From: Marinitoga hydrogenitolerans DSM 16785
Lineage (GTDB): Bacteria; Thermotogota; Thermotogae; Petrotogales; Petrotogaceae
Length of the DNA stretch: 64,000 bases
Direction: 5' to 3'
Assembly: GCF_900129175.1 (NCBI RefSeq)
Contig: NZ_FQUI01000006.1
Coordinates: forward strand, 1-64,000
This document shows positions 45,081 to 53,392 of the stretch, in pieces. The notes beneath the pieces were generated by a model. It saw nothing but the letters and a program-made list of their open reading frames with translations. It did not search any database and was not told where the DNA came from. Every line of letters begins with the position of its first letter. Within the stretch, counting starts at the first letter, position 1. The position numbers and the translations under genes are program-made.

Positions 45081-46325
45081 TTATTGAGAAATTCCAACAT
45101 ATAAATCCATAGTTCTTTCTACAGTGTTTTCATTTGATTTTACAGCAAAAATTAGCTTATAATTACCAGGTATTGATAATTTTACAGGAGGTATATATGA
45201 AACCGAATGTATTTGAACCTTTCCACCTTCACTAATATATATTCGTTTTTTTTCGTTATTCTCATAATTATAAACAATAGTATTATTTTCAATATTTAGT
45301 AATCTTATATTATACCCTTCAATTTCTAAAAATCTTTCTTTTTTAAAATCTAAATTATTTATATAAAAATCTCCTTGAAACAGCTGGTTTACAGGATAAA
45401 AAAGATATGTGTCAATTGACAAGCTCACATTTTTTAATTTTTTTTCTATATTATTTGTTATTGCTAATGGAATATAAACAGCCTGATTTAATTCTTCACT
45501 TACAAAATATAATTCATATATACCTTTACTTACCGGAGGGATACTTATCTCAAATGTTTGATATTCTAAAGAGTTTAATGTAATATAACCTAAATTTACA
45601 GGAACTTCTTTTATCAACTTTCTTTTTTGAGTAAATATTTGAATTTTCCCCATAAGATTAATACTTTTAGTCTCAGATGAATAATTTTTTGCTTCTATAT
45701 ATAATTTAGGATATTCATTTTCTAAATAAAAAGCTTTTTCCAAATAAATATTATATTTAATTGAATGAATATATTTAAACTGTTTTTTCAATTTTATCGT
45801 TTTATTATTATAATTAAATTTCGCTTCAACAACATAATCTCCATTAGGAATCTTCGACATTGGATTAACCAAATTTAAATCGAAAATTTTTTTACTCTCT
45901 AAAGGATATAATTCGTAATCTATAATATTAGGATATTCAAATCTATAAAAAGTTTCACTAGATGAATCTGTTACTTTATATATATAAAATACAAACGAAT
46001 CTATTTTCATTTTTTTACTTTTACTTCCTGTATTAAACATATTAACATTTATACTTAATCCATCTGGATATGTGTATTCATTTGGTGACATTAGTGAAAA
46101 TGATATACTATCCATTATTAACGAATCTCCAAACCTGTATCTTGGAAAATAATATTTCGATAATATTATTAGTGCTATTGCAAAAACAGAAATAAAAATA
46201 ATAATAAGATTATTTGTTCTTTGCCTTCTTTTTTGCATTTTTCTTATATAATCCCTCTTTTCTTTTTCCTTATCATATTTTTCCCATTCTTCTGGTGTTT
46301 TACTATGATATTTCATAAAATTCAC
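45081..46325 (-). CDS. membrane-anchored extracytoplasmic beta-rich protein
   Basis: 414 aa. A charged N-terminus (about 1-35) and one membrane helix (about 37-55, NLIIIFISVFAIALIIL) are followed by some 350 extracytoplasmic residues in Ig-like beta repeats (for example NGDYVVEAKFNY, KGIYELYFVSEE, PGNYKLIFAVKS, each a G-x-Y-x-L strand). It resembles CARDB/intracellular-proteinase-inhibitor-like folds, but I cannot name a family. It overlaps the GspE-like ATPase gene by four bases, suggesting work with it. Confidence 0.75.
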   Translation of the reverse strand: MNFMKYHSKTPEEWEKYDKEKEKRDYIRKMQKRRQRTNNLIIIFISVFAIALIILSKYYFPRYRFGDSLIMDSISFSLMSPNEYTYPDGLSINVNMFNTGSKSKKMKIDSFVFYIYKVTDSSSETFYRFEYPNIIDYELYPLESKKIFDLNLVNPMSKIPNGDYVVEAKFNYNNKTIKLKKQFKYIHSIKYNIYLEKAFYLENEYPKLYIEAKNYSSETKSINLMGKIQIFTQKRKLIKEVPVNLGYITLNSLEYQTFEISIPPVSKGIYELYFVSEELNQAVYIPLAITNNIEKKLKNVSLSIDTYLFYPVNQLFQGDFYINNLDFKKERFLEIEGYNIRLLNIENNTIVYNYENNEKKRIYISEGGKVQIHSVSYIPPVKLSIPGNYKLIFAVKSNENTVERTMDLYVGISQ

Positions 46326-47467
46326 CTCTGTTCATCATTAAAAAAAGTTTTATATTCATTTATTGATATTTTGCTTTTGATAAGTAATTGGTTTAATTCA
46401 TCTTCATAAAATGTATAAAAAGGCGTTTGTTTTATTTTTTTTATGTCGTTTTTTCTTAAATATTCTTTTGTTAATTCATTAATTTCAAGAATTTCAAAAA
46501 CTGGTTTTATCGAAATATATCCTGTATTATGACATTTGTTACATCCTTTATTGTTTTCATCAACATAACAATCACATTTTATTTTTACAAAGTTTTGATT
46601 AAATATAAGCTTTACAGAATTTAAAATATCATTTTGTTTAATTCCTTTTTCAATCAATCTATTAATTACATTAAAAACATCATTTGAATGTATTGTAGAA
46701 AAAACCAAATGACCAGTCATAGCTGCTTCTACAGTTAATTTAGACATTTCTTCTGTTCTAATTTCACCTGTCATTAAAATATCTGGATCATGTCTTAAAA
46801 TATTTTTCAATAAAGTTGTTTTTTCTGAATCACTATTTATTTCAATTTGCTGAGCACCTGGTATTTGATATTCAAGAGGATTTTCAATTGTAATAATCTT
46901 TTTTGATTTATATTTCAAAATATCAAGTAAAATATATGCTAATGCAGTTGATTTACCACTACCTGTTGGTCCTGAAAACAGAATAAGGCCGCTTTTCATC
47001 ATTTTAATTTTTTCTATATAATCAATGAATTTTTCTGGATAATTTAAATTTTCAACAGTTAAATCTGAAATGTCTTTCAATTTTCTTATTACACAATTTA
47101 TACCATCTGTGTTTCTAATCAATGAAATTCTAAATCTCTGGTTATAAAAAGCAAAGGACCCATCTGACGGATCCTTATCATTAACAACATCTATTTTTGA
47201 CAATATCTGAATTTTAGTCAAAATTTTATCATATATCTTCTTTGGAATTTTTTCAAATTCTATTAATGTACTATTAAATCTATAAGATATAACGGAGTTC
47301 TGTTTATCTACAGAAAAATGCAAATCGGTTACTTTCTTTTCTAAAAGAATACCCATATACTTTTCAAAAAGTATAGCTGGATCAATGTCTTTAATTTTTA
47401 TTCCTTTATCTATTTTTTTATTAAAAAATAATTGTTGAACAGAAATTTCTTCCAAATTATTCTTCAT
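46322..47467 (-). CDS. GspE/PilB-like type II secretion or type IV pilus ATPase
   Basis: 381 aa. An N-terminal domain with VTDLHF precedes a RecA-like core: Walker A GPTGSGKSTALAY, Asp box TIENPLEYQIPGAQQ, Walker B region DILMTGEIR and His box GHLVFSTIHSND. A four-cysteine zinc element CDCYVDENNKGCNKCH follows. The usual GEIRD is GEIRT here. It lacks the long N1 domain of PilB. The gene starts inside ftsZ (11-base overlap), an unusual place for a pilus/secretion ATPase; no other pilin genes are in the window. Confidence 0.88.
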   Translation of the reverse strand: MKNNLEEISVQQLFFNKKIDKGIKIKDIDPAILFEKYMGILLEKKVTDLHFSVDKQNSVISYRFNSTLIEFEKIPKKIYDKILTKIQILSKIDVVNDKDPSDGSFAFYNQRFRISLIRNTDGINCVIRKLKDISDLTVENLNYPEKFIDYIEKIKMMKSGLILFSGPTGSGKSTALAYILLDILKYKSKKIITIENPLEYQIPGAQQIEINSDSEKTTLLKNILRHDPDILMTGEIRTEEMSKLTVEAAMTGHLVFSTIHSNDVFNVINRLIEKGIKQNDILNSVKLIFNQNFVKIKCDCYVDENNKGCNKCHNTGYISIKPVFEILEINELTKEYLRKNDIKKIKQTPFYTFYEDELNQLLIKSKISINEYKTFFNDEQR

Positions 47468-48569
47468 AATCTCCCTGCTGTGCTTCTAAATATTTTTCTA
47501 ATTTAATCTTTTCTTCATTTAAAACATTATTCCCAAACAGTCTATATATTGCAGGGATTTCATAAATATTTTCTCCGTCAAAATCATTCAATATTTTATT
47601 ATATCCAGCAGCAACAATAGTAACCTTTAGTTCATCAGGTTGCATATCATCAACTTCAGTAATACCATATTTTAAATTAACTTCATCGGTTGAATATGAA
47701 TGTAAAATAGAAGTTACTATTTTTAAATCTTTTAATGTTGGATTTTTACCTGCAACATTAACTAAAGCTGCTGTAGCATTTTGAACTGAATTTTCCAAAA
47801 ATTTGGAATTTAAGGCATTTTTGGCAGCTTCTTCAGCTTTATTAGGTCCTTTACCCCAACCAATACCAAGCATTGCGGAACCTCTTCTTTTTAAAACAGA
47901 TTCCACATCAGCAAAATCTGTATTTACCAAACCTTTTTTGGTAATTAAATCGGAAATTCCTGTTATTCCTTGATATAAAATATCGTCAGCTTTTGCAAAA
48001 GCTTGTCTTATTGGAATATCATCATTTTCTTCAAGTAATTTATCATTTGAAATTTTTATTAACGTATCAACATATGGTTTTAATTTATTCAAACCACTAT
48101 TTGCTATTTTTTGTTTTGTTGAACCTTCAAAATGAAATGGTATAGTTACAACTGCAACTGTTAATATGCCTAATTCCCTAGCTATACGAGCTATTACTGG
48201 AGAAGCCCCAGTACCAGTTCCACCACCAAATCCAGCTGTAATGAACAGCAAATCAGTTCCTTGAATCATTTCTCTTATTTCATCAGCACTTTCTTCGGCA
48301 GCTTTTTCCCCTTTTTCCGGATTTCCACCAGCTCCTAACCCTCTTGTTAATTCCTTTCCAAGTTGTAATTTAAATTTTGCATTGCTTGTTTCCAAAACTT
48401 GCACATCAGTATTAGCCGCAATAAGATCGACTTCAGCAACACCTAATCTTACCATTCTTTCAATAGCGTTGTTACCAGCACCACCAACACCTATAACTTT
48501 AATAACATACTTAGGCCTTTTATGAAACATTTCTTTAGAATTATCCTCAATAGGCAAATTAAATGGCAT
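47457..48569 (-). CDS. ftsZ: cell division protein FtsZ
   Basis: About 370 aa tubulin-like GTPase forming the division ring. GVGGAGNNAIERMV, AANTDVQVL, the tubulin signature GGGTGTGASPVIA, and the C-terminal tail motif EIPAIYRLFG, likely the FtsA-binding site, near residue 350. ATG 48569 is preferred over 48575 because AGGGGGTAA ends 5 bases before it. It overlaps ftsA by 11 bases. Confidence 0.97.
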   Translation of the reverse strand: MPFNLPIEDNSKEMFHKRPKYVIKVIGVGGAGNNAIERMVRLGVAEVDLIAANTDVQVLETSNAKFKLQLGKELTRGLGAGGNPEKGEKAAEESADEIREMIQGTDLLFITAGFGGGTGTGASPVIARIARELGILTVAVVTIPFHFEGSTKQKIANSGLNKLKPYVDTLIKISNDKLLEENDDIPIRQAFAKADDILYQGITGISDLITKKGLVNTDFADVESVLKRRGSAMLGIGWGKGPNKAEEAAKNALNSKFLENSVQNATAALVNVAGKNPTLKDLKIVTSILHSYSTDEVNLKYGITEVDDMQPDELKVTIVAAGYNKILNDFDGENIYEIPAIYRLFGNNVLNEEKIKLEKYLEAQQGDYEE

Positions 48570-49869
48570 CTTCATTACCCCCTAAAAGGATTCTTCCAAG
48601 TCTTGAGAAGAAACCTCCCTTTTTTTCTACTTTTTCTTCATGAAAATTATTTTCAACATAATCTTTTGAATCTTCTATATATAATTTTGGTATATTTGTA
48701 CCACTAAAATATAAATTTATAGTTCCTAAAATTGGTGAAAACAATGGATCTTTAAATAATTCATCTGCATTTTCAATATAAAAATTAGATGAATTGTTCG
48801 AGGCTACTCCTAACCTTGTTTGAGATCCCATAAAATCAGAAATAGTCTTTTCAATATTTTTTATTCTTGCTCCACCACCTGTATGAACTATACCTGCTTG
48901 AAGTCCTCCAGCTATTTCAAGTGTATTTTCATATTCTAATTTAGCTAAATCACTATTTAATTTATTTATTATTTCTCGAGTTCTCGCAAAAACTATTTTA
49001 TTAAGTAAATTCTGTGTAGTATATTCATAATGATCTCCAACTAAACTCAAATAGTCAACTTTCTTCACAACTTTTGTATCTTGAAGACAAACTGCCTGTT
49101 CTTCAAGAAGTCTTAAAGCTTCTCCTTCAGATGTTTTTAAAACATGCATTAAATCTTTTAATACATATTCCATACCAACCTCAAAATCCAAATAAAATTT
49201 AGGGATTCCATCCTTGAAAATCAACATTCTTGCTTTTGAATGTCCTAAATCTATAATACCAACACCAAGATTTCTATCTGAAGTATTTGTAACTCCATAA
49301 GCTGCTGCTAAAGTCGAATCATATATTGGAATTTCACCTTCTACTAAATTTTTTATTGTATTTCTAATAGGAGCAAAAGCATTTTCAGGTACCCAAATAA
49401 CATTTATCACCGCATTTAAACTATAATTCGCAACAAAAGCTACCGGATTTTTTACCTTCTTATCATCCACCTCAAAATTCACAAATTTTATATCTAAAAC
49501 CTCTTTATTTAATTCAGAATATTTTTGTTGTATATTTGATTTAATTTTTTCTAAATCTCCTTCTGTGATTTCTTTTGGTTCAGAGAATTCTAATGTATAA
49601 CTTTCTCTTGAAATTTTTAATTCATTAGTAGCATAAGATAAAATTATTTCTATTTCTTTTGCTTTATTATTTTCCCCTTCTAAAGTATAAATAACATTTT
49701 CTATTTTTCTCCTTAATGCTTTCACATCTTGAACCTGTCCTTTTACAATCCCCTCAGCTCTCTCTATTGATTTGGAAATCATTTGAAATCTTCCTTTAAC
49801 TTCCTCTAATGCTATACCTTTAATGAAAAAATTTCCGACATCAATTGCATAAATAACCTTTTTGGCCAT
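48559..49869 (-). CDS. ftsA: cell division protein FtsA
   Basis: 436 aa actin-like protein tethering FtsZ to the membrane. Phosphate-binding AIDVGNFFIKGIALEE, GVGIIDLGHSKARM, and GIVHTGGGARIKNIE. The C-terminal amphipathic helix GGFFSRLGRILLGG serves as the membrane tail. The SD GGAGGGATAA precedes the ATG. It follows the FtsQ-like gene by 10 bases. Confidence 0.95.
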   Translation of the reverse strand: MAKKVIYAIDVGNFFIKGIALEEVKGRFQMISKSIERAEGIVKGQVQDVKALRRKIENVIYTLEGENNKAKEIEIILSYATNELKISRESYTLEFSEPKEITEGDLEKIKSNIQQKYSELNKEVLDIKFVNFEVDDKKVKNPVAFVANYSLNAVINVIWVPENAFAPIRNTIKNLVEGEIPIYDSTLAAAYGVTNTSDRNLGVGIIDLGHSKARMLIFKDGIPKFYLDFEVGMEYVLKDLMHVLKTSEGEALRLLEEQAVCLQDTKVVKKVDYLSLVGDHYEYTTQNLLNKIVFARTREIINKLNSDLAKLEYENTLEIAGGLQAGIVHTGGGARIKNIEKTISDFMGSQTRLGVASNNSSNFYIENADELFKDPLFSPILGTINLYFSGTNIPKLYIEDSKDYVENNFHEEKVEKKGGFFSRLGRILLGGNEDAI

Positions 49870-49879
49870 TTTATCCCTC

Positions 49880-50350
49880 CTAATAAATACTAATTAAACT
49901 ACCTCCAGAAAGAAGATGATAATTCCCCGGTTCATATTTTTTTAATTTAATTATTATATCTTCAAAATTTTTTATAACATCTTTCCATGAATTAAAAAAA
50001 ATTTTATAACCGACATTTATGTATAATATTTTTTTTTCAAAATCAATTCTCGAAATATAATTTAATTGATTTAAAGATAATTTTGACAATTCGTTTTTAT
50101 AATTAAAATAATCATCAAAATTTATAAGAGGATATCCTACTATAGGAACATCCGAAATTTTAAAAATTATTTCATCTTTATTTAAAAGTAGATACCTGCT
50201 ATTAAATTTTACCACACATATAGGTTGTTGTATTGCTGCGATGTTAATCGTGTTTTTCTTTTGTGTAACAAAAAAACTGAAGATAATATAAAAAATAATA
50301 AAAATATACATCATCAATATTAACAGCAATAAAGAACGTGTGGCATTCAT
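49880..50350 (-). CDS. short FtsQ/DivIB-like bitopic membrane protein (tentative)
   Basis: 156 aa. One membrane helix (about 6-29) is followed by ~125 extracytoplasmic residues: YLLLNKDEIIFKI, LPxxxx-like VPIVGYPLINFDDYF, YISRIDFEKKILYINVGYKI, and a final helix NFEDIIIKLKKYEPGNYHLL. That order resembles the beta domain of FtsQ/DivIB, but with little room for a POTRA domain. The gene sits immediately before ftsA-ftsZ, the canonical ftsQ position, and directly after the gyrB stop (TAAATG). The call is inference from position and pattern. Confidence 0.55.
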   Translation of the reverse strand: MNATRSLLLLILMMYIFIIFYIIFSFFVTQKKNTINIAAIQQPICVVKFNSRYLLLNKDEIIFKISDVPIVGYPLINFDDYFNYKNELSKLSLNQLNYISRIDFEKKILYINVGYKIFFNSWKDVIKNFEDIIIKLKKYEPGNYHLLSGGSLISIY

Positions 50351-52273
50351 TTAAATATCTAGCTCCTTAATCTTTAAAGCATGTTCTTCTATAAATTCTC
50401 TTCTTGCTGATGGATCATTTCCCATCAATATTTCCAAAATTTCTTCTGTTTCTACAAGATCATCAATATTAATTTGAACTAATTTTCTTTTTTCTGGATC
50501 CATTGTTGTGTCCCATAATTGATTAGAATTCATTTCACCAAGCCCTTTATATCTTTGTAATGAAAATTTTGGATACTCTTTCTTTAATTTTTCTAATTCT
50601 TCATCGCTATATAAATAAGCTTCAAATTTACCTGATTTAAATTTATATAAAGGTGGTTGTGCTGCATATATTCTTCCCTCTTTAATTAATTCAGGCATAA
50701 ACCTGAAAAACAATGCTAATAACAATGTTCTTATGTGAGCTCCATCAACATCAGCATCTGTCATAATAATAATTTTTCCATATCTTAATTTATCTATATT
50801 AAAATTTTCTCCTATCCCAGTACCAATTGCTGATATAATATTTGAAACTTGTTCATTTTTCATTAATCTTTCAATATCATGTTTTTCAACATTAATTATT
50901 TTACCTCTTAATGGCAATATTGCTTGAAAATTTCTATCTCTAGCAGTTTTAGCATTACCACCAGCTGAATTTCCTTCAACAATAAATAATTCTGTCTCAT
51001 CTAAATTGGTTGATGTACAGTCAGCAAGTTTTCCAGGAAGTGGTGAATTTTCAAAAATTGATTTTCTTTTTACTTTATCTCGAGCTTTTTTTGCGTTTAT
51101 ACGAGCTCTTGCAGCTTCTTTTATGCGTTCAAATATCATTTTTGTATCTTTAGGATGAGAGTCCAGAAATTTAATTAAATATTCTGATAAAATTTCATTT
51201 ACAGCAACCCTAACTTCTTTACTTCCTAATTTAGCTTTCGTCTGACCTTCAAAAACTGGGTCTGGAAGCTTAATACTCAAAATTGCAATTAATCCTTCTC
51301 TTACATCTTCACCAGTAAAATTGGCTTCTTTTTCTTTTAAAAATTTATTCTTACGGGCATATTCATTCATTATTCTTGTTAAAGTTGTTTTAAAAGCTGA
51401 TTCATGTTCTCCACCTTCAATAGTTCTTATATTATTTACATAGCTATATAAATGTGGAAAATCATTTCGTGTATACATCATTGAAAATTCAACTATAATA
51501 TCAGAAAAATTTTCACCTCTTGGATTTTTTACAGCCCCTTTTCCAAAAATAGGATTTTCATGTATTGGCATTTTTTTATTCTTTTTAATCAAATGCTCTA
51601 AAAATTCTGATATGCCTTTTTCAAATTTAAATACATTTTTTTTATTTCTTTTTTCATCTATAAATTCTATTTCTAAACCAGGATTTAAAAATGCTAATTC
51701 CCTTAATCTACTTTCAATAATTTGTCCTTCTACTTCAATATCGCCATTTTCAAATATTTCAGAATCTGGTTTAAATTTTATATGTGTTCCAGTTTTATTT
51801 GTATCACTTAATATTTCTACTTCAGTTAGCTTAATTCCTCTTGAATATTTTTGATAATATATCTTTCCATTTCTATGAACCCAAACCTCTAAATATTCAG
51901 ATAAAGCATTAACAACAGAAGCACCAACACCATGCAATCCACCACTTATTTTATAAGTAGCATTATCAAATTTACCGCCAGCATGTAGTGTTGTAAACAC
52001 AACTTCTAGTGTATCTTTTTTTTCAGTTGGATGTGGCCCTACAGGAATTCCTCTTCCGTTGTCTATAATTTCTATAGAATTATCACTATTTATTTTAACT
52101 ACAATTTTACTACAAAAACCACTCATATATTCATCAACACTATTATCTACTATTTCATATACTAAATGATTTAATCCTGATTTCCCAATAGAACCTATAT
52201 ACATACCAGGTCTTTTTCTAACAGGTTCTAAACCTTTTAAAACTTTAATATTTTCTTGGGAATATTGACTCAT
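50351..52273 (-). CDS. gyrB: DNA gyrase subunit B
   Basis: 640 aa, typical GyrB length. GHKL ATPase: VRKRPGMYIGS, EIVDNSVDE, IIDNGRGIPVG, SGGLHGVGASVVNALS. TOPRIM: LFIVEGNSAGGNAK, PLRGKIINVEK and MTDADVDGAHI, then the C-terminal QRYKGLGEMN. ParE is a formal alternative. It overlaps the DciA-like gene by one base. Confidence 0.95.
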   Translation of the reverse strand: MSQYSQENIKVLKGLEPVRKRPGMYIGSIGKSGLNHLVYEIVDNSVDEYMSGFCSKIVVKINSDNSIEIIDNGRGIPVGPHPTEKKDTLEVVFTTLHAGGKFDNATYKISGGLHGVGASVVNALSEYLEVWVHRNGKIYYQKYSRGIKLTEVEILSDTNKTGTHIKFKPDSEIFENGDIEVEGQIIESRLRELAFLNPGLEIEFIDEKRNKKNVFKFEKGISEFLEHLIKKNKKMPIHENPIFGKGAVKNPRGENFSDIIVEFSMMYTRNDFPHLYSYVNNIRTIEGGEHESAFKTTLTRIMNEYARKNKFLKEKEANFTGEDVREGLIAILSIKLPDPVFEGQTKAKLGSKEVRVAVNEILSEYLIKFLDSHPKDTKMIFERIKEAARARINAKKARDKVKRKSIFENSPLPGKLADCTSTNLDETELFIVEGNSAGGNAKTARDRNFQAILPLRGKIINVEKHDIERLMKNEQVSNIISAIGTGIGENFNIDKLRYGKIIIMTDADVDGAHIRTLLLALFFRFMPELIKEGRIYAAQPPLYKFKSGKFEAYLYSDEELEKLKKEYPKFSLQRYKGLGEMNSNQLWDTTMDPEKRKLVQINIDDLVETEEILEILMGNDPSARREFIEEHALKIKELDI

Positions 52274-52569
52274 TAACTAACACCTCCGGAAAATTTTATA
52301 TCTTTTATCTTATCATATTCAAGTTTATTATTAATATCTATTAAAATTCTTTTCTTTTTAAATACAATTTCTTGCTTAATATAATTATCATTTACATACA
52401 AAAAAAGTGTGGAGGTTTTCAAATCTACATTAACCACCTCCACTGAGGTTAAACCATATTTCTCAAAAACATTTTTTATTATATTTTTTAAGTCTTTTAT
52501 CATCAAAACCTTTTTTAATACGTTATTTTGGCGTCCTAAATCTTTAAGAATTTCATTTAATTCTTTCAT
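52273..52569 (-). CDS. DUF721/DciA-like protein (tentative)
   Basis: 98 aa from ATG 52569 behind GGGAGTAA. It reads MKELNEILKDLG... and ends with a KH-like pattern: TLFLYVNDNYIKQEIVFKKK, LIDINNKL, IKDIKFSGG, close to the DUF721 (DciA) consensus of a strand, a bulky w/y-x-x-E/L segment, and inter-lg-x-x-i-x-x-i-x-f. DciA loads or activates the replicative DnaB helicase. It lies next to gyrB, as DUF721 does in Actinobacteria. The extra 34 residues upstream of 52569 have no SD and overlap the aminotransferase gene. Confidence 0.6.
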   Translation of the reverse strand: MKELNEILKDLGRQNNVLKKVLMIKDLKNIIKNVFEKYGLTSVEVVNVDLKTSTLFLYVNDNYIKQEIVFKKKRILIDINNKLEYDKIKDIKFSGGVS

Positions 52570-52570
52570 T

Positions 52571-53392
52571 TTACTCCCAATACTCATTATTAGCAATAAT
52601 AAAATCTTGCCAGTAATTAATAAGCGTTTCCGTTGAAATCCCTGGAGCATTAAATGTAAAATTAGGAACAATCCTTCTAACTGGTATTATTCCAACACTA
52701 GTATGAGTCAAAAAAATTTCATCTGCAGAAAGCAGTTCCCATACCTCTATATTTCTCTCTTCAAAATCCATATTAAAACTTTCTATTAATTCTAAAACTA
52801 TTTTTCTTGTAACTCCCGGTAAAATCCCGGCAGAAATTGGAGGAGTCGTTATTACTCCAGCAGTTACAATAAAAATATTAGATTTAGTACCCTCAGTAAC
52901 ATATCCAAATTCATTTAAAACAATAGAATCATAATAGGCATTATATTTTTGCCTTAAATACATACTATATCCGTTCAATGTTGTTTTTACATAATATGGA
53001 ATCACTGGATTTTTTGGTTTTCTCTCGCGAGAAATTGTAAGAACAACACCACTTTCTCTTAAATCATCAATTTCTCTTATCGGTTCTATAAAGGCATAAA
53101 AAGTTTTTTCTTTAGACGTATATTTATTTATCAATATTTTTATTCTCACATCATTTTTGCAATTAAAGTTTTTTATGCCACTTATTAATGTGTTTTTTAA
53201 AATTTCGTATTCTGGAACTTCCAAACCTAAAAACATCGCAGATTTTTTTAATCTCTCATAATGAAAACGAAGAGCAAAAATATTTTTATTATAAGTCCTC
53301 AATGTTTCATAAGTAGAATAACCATTAAAAAGGTCAAAATCTTCATTTTTATATATTGTTTTTTCAATCCAATTTTTAGAATTATAAAACAC
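52571..53392 (-). CDS. class IV aminotransferase (BCAT/DAAT/ADC-lyase family)
   Basis: 273 aa PLP enzyme. NGYSTYETLRTYN, the catalytic lysine in YYVKTTLNGYSM, then LNEFGYVTEGTKSNIFIV and PPISAGILPGVTRKIVLEL. The exact substrate (branched-chain amino acid, D-alanine or aminodeoxychorismate) cannot be told. It overlaps mtaB by 11 bases at its start. Confidence 0.88.
   Translation of the reverse strand: MFYNSKNWIEKTIYKNEDFDLFNGYSTYETLRTYNKNIFALRFHYERLKKSAMFLGLEVPEYEILKNTLISGIKNFNCKNDVRIKILINKYTSKEKTFYAFIEPIREIDDLRESGVVLTISRERKPKNPVIPYYVKTTLNGYSMYLRQKYNAYYDSIVLNEFGYVTEGTKSNIFIVTAGVITTPPISAGILPGVTRKIVLELIESFNMDFEERNIEVWELLSADEIFLTHTSVGIIPVRRIVPNFTFNAPGISTETLINYWQDFIIANNEYWE

Follow-up and report, generated by a model that had tools for sequence, protein, structure and literature searches.

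The analysed window comprises 64,000 nucleotides of contig NZ_FQUI01000006.1 from Marinitoga hydrogenitolerans DSM 16785 and contains, all on the minus strand, gyrB (50351..52273), an open reading frame of 156 amino acids starting with ATG (49880..50350), ftsA (48559..49869; PF14450, E=7e-10) and ftsZ (47457..48575; PF00091, E=8.6e-49, and PF12327, E=6.4e-17), in this order. The stop codon of gyrB abuts the start codon of the ORF without a gap (TAA directly followed by ATG), and a Shine-Dalgarno motif, AAGGAG, is located 12 nt upstream of this ATG within the 3' end of gyrB (50363..50368, minus strand). At the other end, the stop codon of the ORF overlaps the Shine-Dalgarno motif AGGAGG of ftsA (49876..49881, minus strand), an arrangement that, judged from the sequence, probably reflects a tight operon with translational coupling. 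Directly upstream of gyrB lies a small DciA-like ORF (52273-52575; PF05258, E 1.8e-5), while ftsZ is followed by a T2SSE-type ATPase gene, downstream of which lies the gene of a protein of 414 aa (45081-46325) that has a single hydrophobic stretch, at its N-terminus, and no Pfam match. The FtsA of the family to which this genome belongs is strongly diverged: in the FtsA/FtsZ tree described below its stem branch measures 0.99 changes per column, and the SHS2_FTSA match of the protein encoded at 48559-49869 falls just below the Pfam cut-off.

The 156-aa ORF is a real gene under purifying selection, since it is intact in six congeners (56-74% identity) and shows a dN/dS of about 0.24-0.35 in the five congeners compared, with most of the differences falling on third codon positions. 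The only Pfam match of its product is PF16235 (DUF4894; E 1.2e-7, 32.6 bits against a curated cut-off of 28), a domain to which Pfam assigns no function and of which no mention was found in the literature searched. At E<=0.01, PF16235 is detected in 80 of 103 Thermotogota genomes and, among 14 control genomes, solely in Thermotoga maritima; in other genera of the family to which M. hydrogenitolerans belongs, members missed by Pfam occupy the same gene position. Loci were read from 97 genomes, and a domain-profile search recovered a homologue in 94 of them; the remaining three all belong to one family (f7 in our numbering of the Thermotogota families), for which the ftsA region alone was fetched and in which the gene is not beside ftsA. 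Nearly all genomes carry a single copy, which adjoins ftsA in every family except f7, where it follows gyrB; gyrB is also its neighbour in most of the other families, f5 and f9 being the exceptions.

No competing FtsQ is recognised in any of the 103 Thermotogota genomes by the FtsQ_DivIB_C model (PF03799), although this is an insensitive test, since the same model finds matches in 5 of the 14 control genomes. A second FtsQ is likewise not detected in the genome of M. hydrogenitolerans itself by PF03799 and protein searches. The window protein gives no PF03799 or NCBIfam FtsQ match, its direct sequence similarity to FtsQ lying below detection, and phmmer and hmmsearch against PDB sequences returned no meaningful match. 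Scattered single NCBIfam matches were rejected as chance matches.

Hydropathy and structure prediction both describe the protein as a single hydrophobic helix followed by an alpha/beta domain, bearing out the original prediction of a bitopic protein of 156 residues placed ahead of ftsA and ftsZ, where ftsQ belongs. The transmembrane helix spans residues 7-25 (50276..50332, minus strand; mean hydropathy 2.88) and residues 3-32 in the model. It is followed by a short linker at about residues 26-42 (50225..50275, minus strand), with a model pLDDT below 50 at residues 32-40, and by a predicted FtsQ/DivIB-type beta domain at residues 43-156 (49883..50224, minus strand), within which the PF16235 match covers residues 48-154. 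The distance from helix to beta domain thus amounts to about 18 residues, whereas relatives that carry a POTRA domain at this place have about 70, in line with the earlier suggestion that the POTRA domain is missing. As an FtsQ, the protein would be oriented with its N-terminus inside and its C-terminus outside; its own positive-inside charge count is balanced (2 versus 2), and across the family the rule favours N-in by 23 to 12.

The AlphaFold model of the window protein has a pLDDT of 77.9, with blocks of the beta domain mostly at 74-87. When it was compared with 350,542 PDB chains using Foldseek, the best match was the extracytoplasmic part of DivIB (1yr1; probability 1.00, E 3.4e-3, TM 0.54 by target, 115 aligned columns), followed by a runner-up with a probability of 0.28. 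A Pseudothermotoga relative sharing 19% identity with the window protein yielded a model matching chain 8bh1_C, the FtsQ of the Pseudomonas aeruginosa FtsWIQBL complex (probability 0.95), and 1yr1 (0.92), the next match being at 0.15. The TM-scores of both models to FtsQ are moderate (0.38-0.54), with Foldseek E-values of 0.003-0.03, and the two models are not fully independent, since both were built on one and the same four-sequence alignment; a contig scan intended to deepen it added only three Pseudothermotoga-type loci, hence the small alignment. The models predict an FtsQ/DivIB-type beta-domain fold for the window protein and its Pseudothermotoga relative, as the original proposal had anticipated for the former. 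The region by which E. coli FtsQ contacts FtsB (around Y248) is not recognisable residue by residue in the window protein.

A bridge to canonical FtsQ is provided by the basal relatives within the phylum, which mostly measure 228-250 aa and can be aligned to the window protein across the entire domain at about 15-25% identity. In family f5, an FtsQ-type POTRA recognised by Pfam precedes DUF4894 (E 1.2e-4 in locus L106, E 1.3e-3 in locus L096), and the f5 gene of genome G004 exceeds the curated cut-off in the genome-level POTRA scan. Of 49 relatives, 3 are weakly matched by the FtsQ_DivIB_C model, all under the cut-off (best E 0.0027), and in locus L009 its match (E 2.7e-3) coincides with the DUF4894 stretch. 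The end of the textbook dcw cluster reads murC-murB-ftsQ-ftsA-ftsZ; locus L096 has the order murC-murB-homologue-ftsA-ftsZ, and L106 has murB-homologue-ftsA-ftsZ, the fetched stretch starting inside murB. A POTRA profile built from f7 alone matches the f5 POTRA (E 5e-5) and gives no match to f6, f2 or the short forms. POTRA itself is present in f5, and f7, f3 and f4 possess regions that align to it. The profile-profile comparison called for by the original prediction did not lend support: run with hhalign against one E. coli FtsQ sequence, the family profiles gave no significant score, the top alignment being in register through the POTRA.

Linker lengths measured in 94 genomes reveal a gradual erosion of the region between helix and beta domain. 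Spacings of 67-76 residues are found in f3, f4, f5 and f7, and of 72-96 residues in f6, there without a match to the POTRA profile (L094, L095, L105). Family f2 has 55-60 residues at this place and part of f10 has 34-52, whereas the remainder of f10 and families f1, f8, f9 and f11 have 11-26. Reduction of the POTRA is accordingly common to most Thermotogota families and not private to this genome. An FtsA/FtsZ tree with E. coli as its root places the long forms basally and every shortened form in one clade (support 91); one main loss of the POTRA followed by further shrinkage would be the simplest reading of this tree, which is a quick one with long branches.

The M. hydrogenitolerans genome contains a cluster mraY-murD-ftsW-murG-murC, with no FtsQ-like gene after murC, and a second stretch in which a 91-aa ORF with a helix and a coil lies between mraW and ftsI. 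This ORF is a cryptic FtsL-like candidate (L175:2947-3222, minus strand, on contig 1 of this genome, G000), and a 114-aa ORF on contig 12 of G000 is a cryptic FtsB/DivIC-like candidate (L240:480-824 in reverse-complement coordinates). PF04977 matches across the phylum were set aside as evidence for FtsB or FtsL, being mostly generic coiled coils, and only small ORFs with a basic-TM-coil layout were kept as candidates. The 114-aa candidate ends in NYNYVPQT, and a similar tail of the NVPQT type occurs in some other families; to judge from its sequence, this tail may be the strand that binds FtsQ.

An FtsL-like gene follows mraW in all 41 genomes read (M. hydrogenitolerans and 40 others). In families where a POTRA is recognisable, the extracytoplasmic part of this protein has a mean length of 62 residues (56-73), compared with 48 (41-56) in the remaining families. 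A strand-like C-terminal tail of the G..YYV type is matched in 9 of 10 genomes of the POTRA families (in the tenth by eye) and in 0 of 31 others. The shortening of FtsL alongside a POTRA-less FtsQ is to be taken as a lead, since it was noticed post hoc and rests on few independent events. We consider it conceivable, at somewhat less than an even chance, that in Thermotogota the components of the FtsQ-FtsL-FtsB complex became more compact together, with loss of the FtsQ POTRA on one side and shortening and tail loss of FtsL on the other; the beta domain would then cap a shorter coil, nearer to the membrane. If true, the natural FtsQ series would demonstrate that the protein can do without its POTRA and would reveal what makes up for the loss. 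As for the original proposal of a minimal version of the divisome, "minimal" is too strong a term, because ftsA, ftsZ, ftsW, ftsI and candidates for ftsL and ftsB are all present.

In E. coli, the final strand of the FtsQ beta domain is joined by a strand from FtsB, and recruitment by FtsK is attributed to the POTRA and the membrane helix (PMC6134095). According to a review, the POTRA of Streptococcus pneumoniae DivIB seemed loosely structured, the FtsL/DivIC rod being held by the beta domain (PMC3152878). By analogy, the Thermotogota protein would keep the binding domain and drop the recruitment domain. It would be a protein of the cytoplasmic membrane with an extracytoplasmic beta domain and most likely the hub of the FtsQ-FtsL-FtsB complex, in which the beta domain would cap the coiled coil of FtsL and FtsB at its end, a strand of FtsB would pair with the last beta strand of FtsQ, and the complex would help to control FtsW-FtsI. 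Binding to FtsB and FtsL and septal localisation would thus be expected of the window protein, and its recruitment without a POTRA would have to depend on the membrane helix, FtsL/FtsB or further partners.

The absence of a direct Pfam or NCBIfam FtsQ match and the low identity to the long relatives would also be compatible with a non-homologous bitopic protein in the place of ftsQ, or with an unrelated division protein that resembles FtsQ in size and position only. We consider this improbable, since FtsQ/DivIB came first in an unbiased PDB search with two different models and since in L096 and L106, where the gene order is murB-ftsQ-ftsA-ftsZ, this domain is preceded by an FtsQ-type POTRA. 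That the gene is a decaying, functionless remnant of ftsQ might be suspected from its length of about half the normal and the loss of one domain; however, the dN/dS range across the five congeners, a frame that is intact in every orthologue read, and the persistence of the gene and its operon signals across essentially all families make such decay hardly credible. An FtsQ relying on a different protein to provide a POTRA-like module in trans would account for recruitment without a POTRA, and we regard this as very unlikely, although slightly less so than decay: in the M. hydrogenitolerans genome a POTRA_1 search at E<=0.1 finds nothing, and its matches in other genomes lie mostly in frames of about 560-880 aa, which are probably outer-membrane proteins of the BamA type, next to two short frames of 225 and 447 aa (E 0.01-0.08).

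We therefore hold it to be highly probable that the window gene is ftsQ (divIB), encoding one TM helix, a short linker and an FtsQ beta domain, with the POTRA lost, and that its product acts at the FtsQ-FtsL-FtsB hub. The cryptic FtsQ/DivIB identity originally put forward is supported by the fold match, by POTRA-bearing relatives in dcw order and by the lack of any other FtsQ detected in this genome or in the 103 of the phylum, in a genome that does carry ftsW, ftsI and candidates for ftsL and ftsB. Because the POTRA is absent, the window protein is classed as an FtsQ homologue by descent, a POTRA-less variant and not the canonical two-domain FtsQ. With this assignment DUF4894 gains a function, that of FtsQ, and the apparent absence of FtsQ from the Thermotogota, as judged by the Pfam model, is filled. 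The graded series of distances between helix and beta domain (about 70, 55, 35 and 11-26 residues) reveals which part of FtsQ is kept and which half of this hub, central to cell division, is open to loss, and the role of the POTRA in FtsQ recruitment becomes testable with natural forms, beyond truncation mutants.

Compared with FtsQ/DivIB as known from other bacteria (PF08478 POTRA_1 plus PF03799), the window gene shares the location just upstream of ftsA-ftsZ, the single N-terminal membrane helix, the predicted fold of the beta domain, the occurrence as one copy per genome and the company of FtsW, FtsI and FtsL- and FtsB-like proteins. It differs in that the protein lacks the POTRA and has 156 aa rather than the 276 of E. 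coli, that its beta domain is too diverged for PF03799, and that the gene has left the vicinity of the mur genes for a place after gyrB. A partial precedent is the chlamydial FtsQ (Ct764), which was identified via structure prediction and whose POTRA is not identifiable by sequence (PMC4643143); there the POTRA is unrecognisable, whereas in the window protein its residues are physically absent. With respect to PF16235, the window protein is a member of DUF4894, which corresponds to the beta domain, and the basal members carry upstream of it a POTRA that lies outside the Pfam domain.
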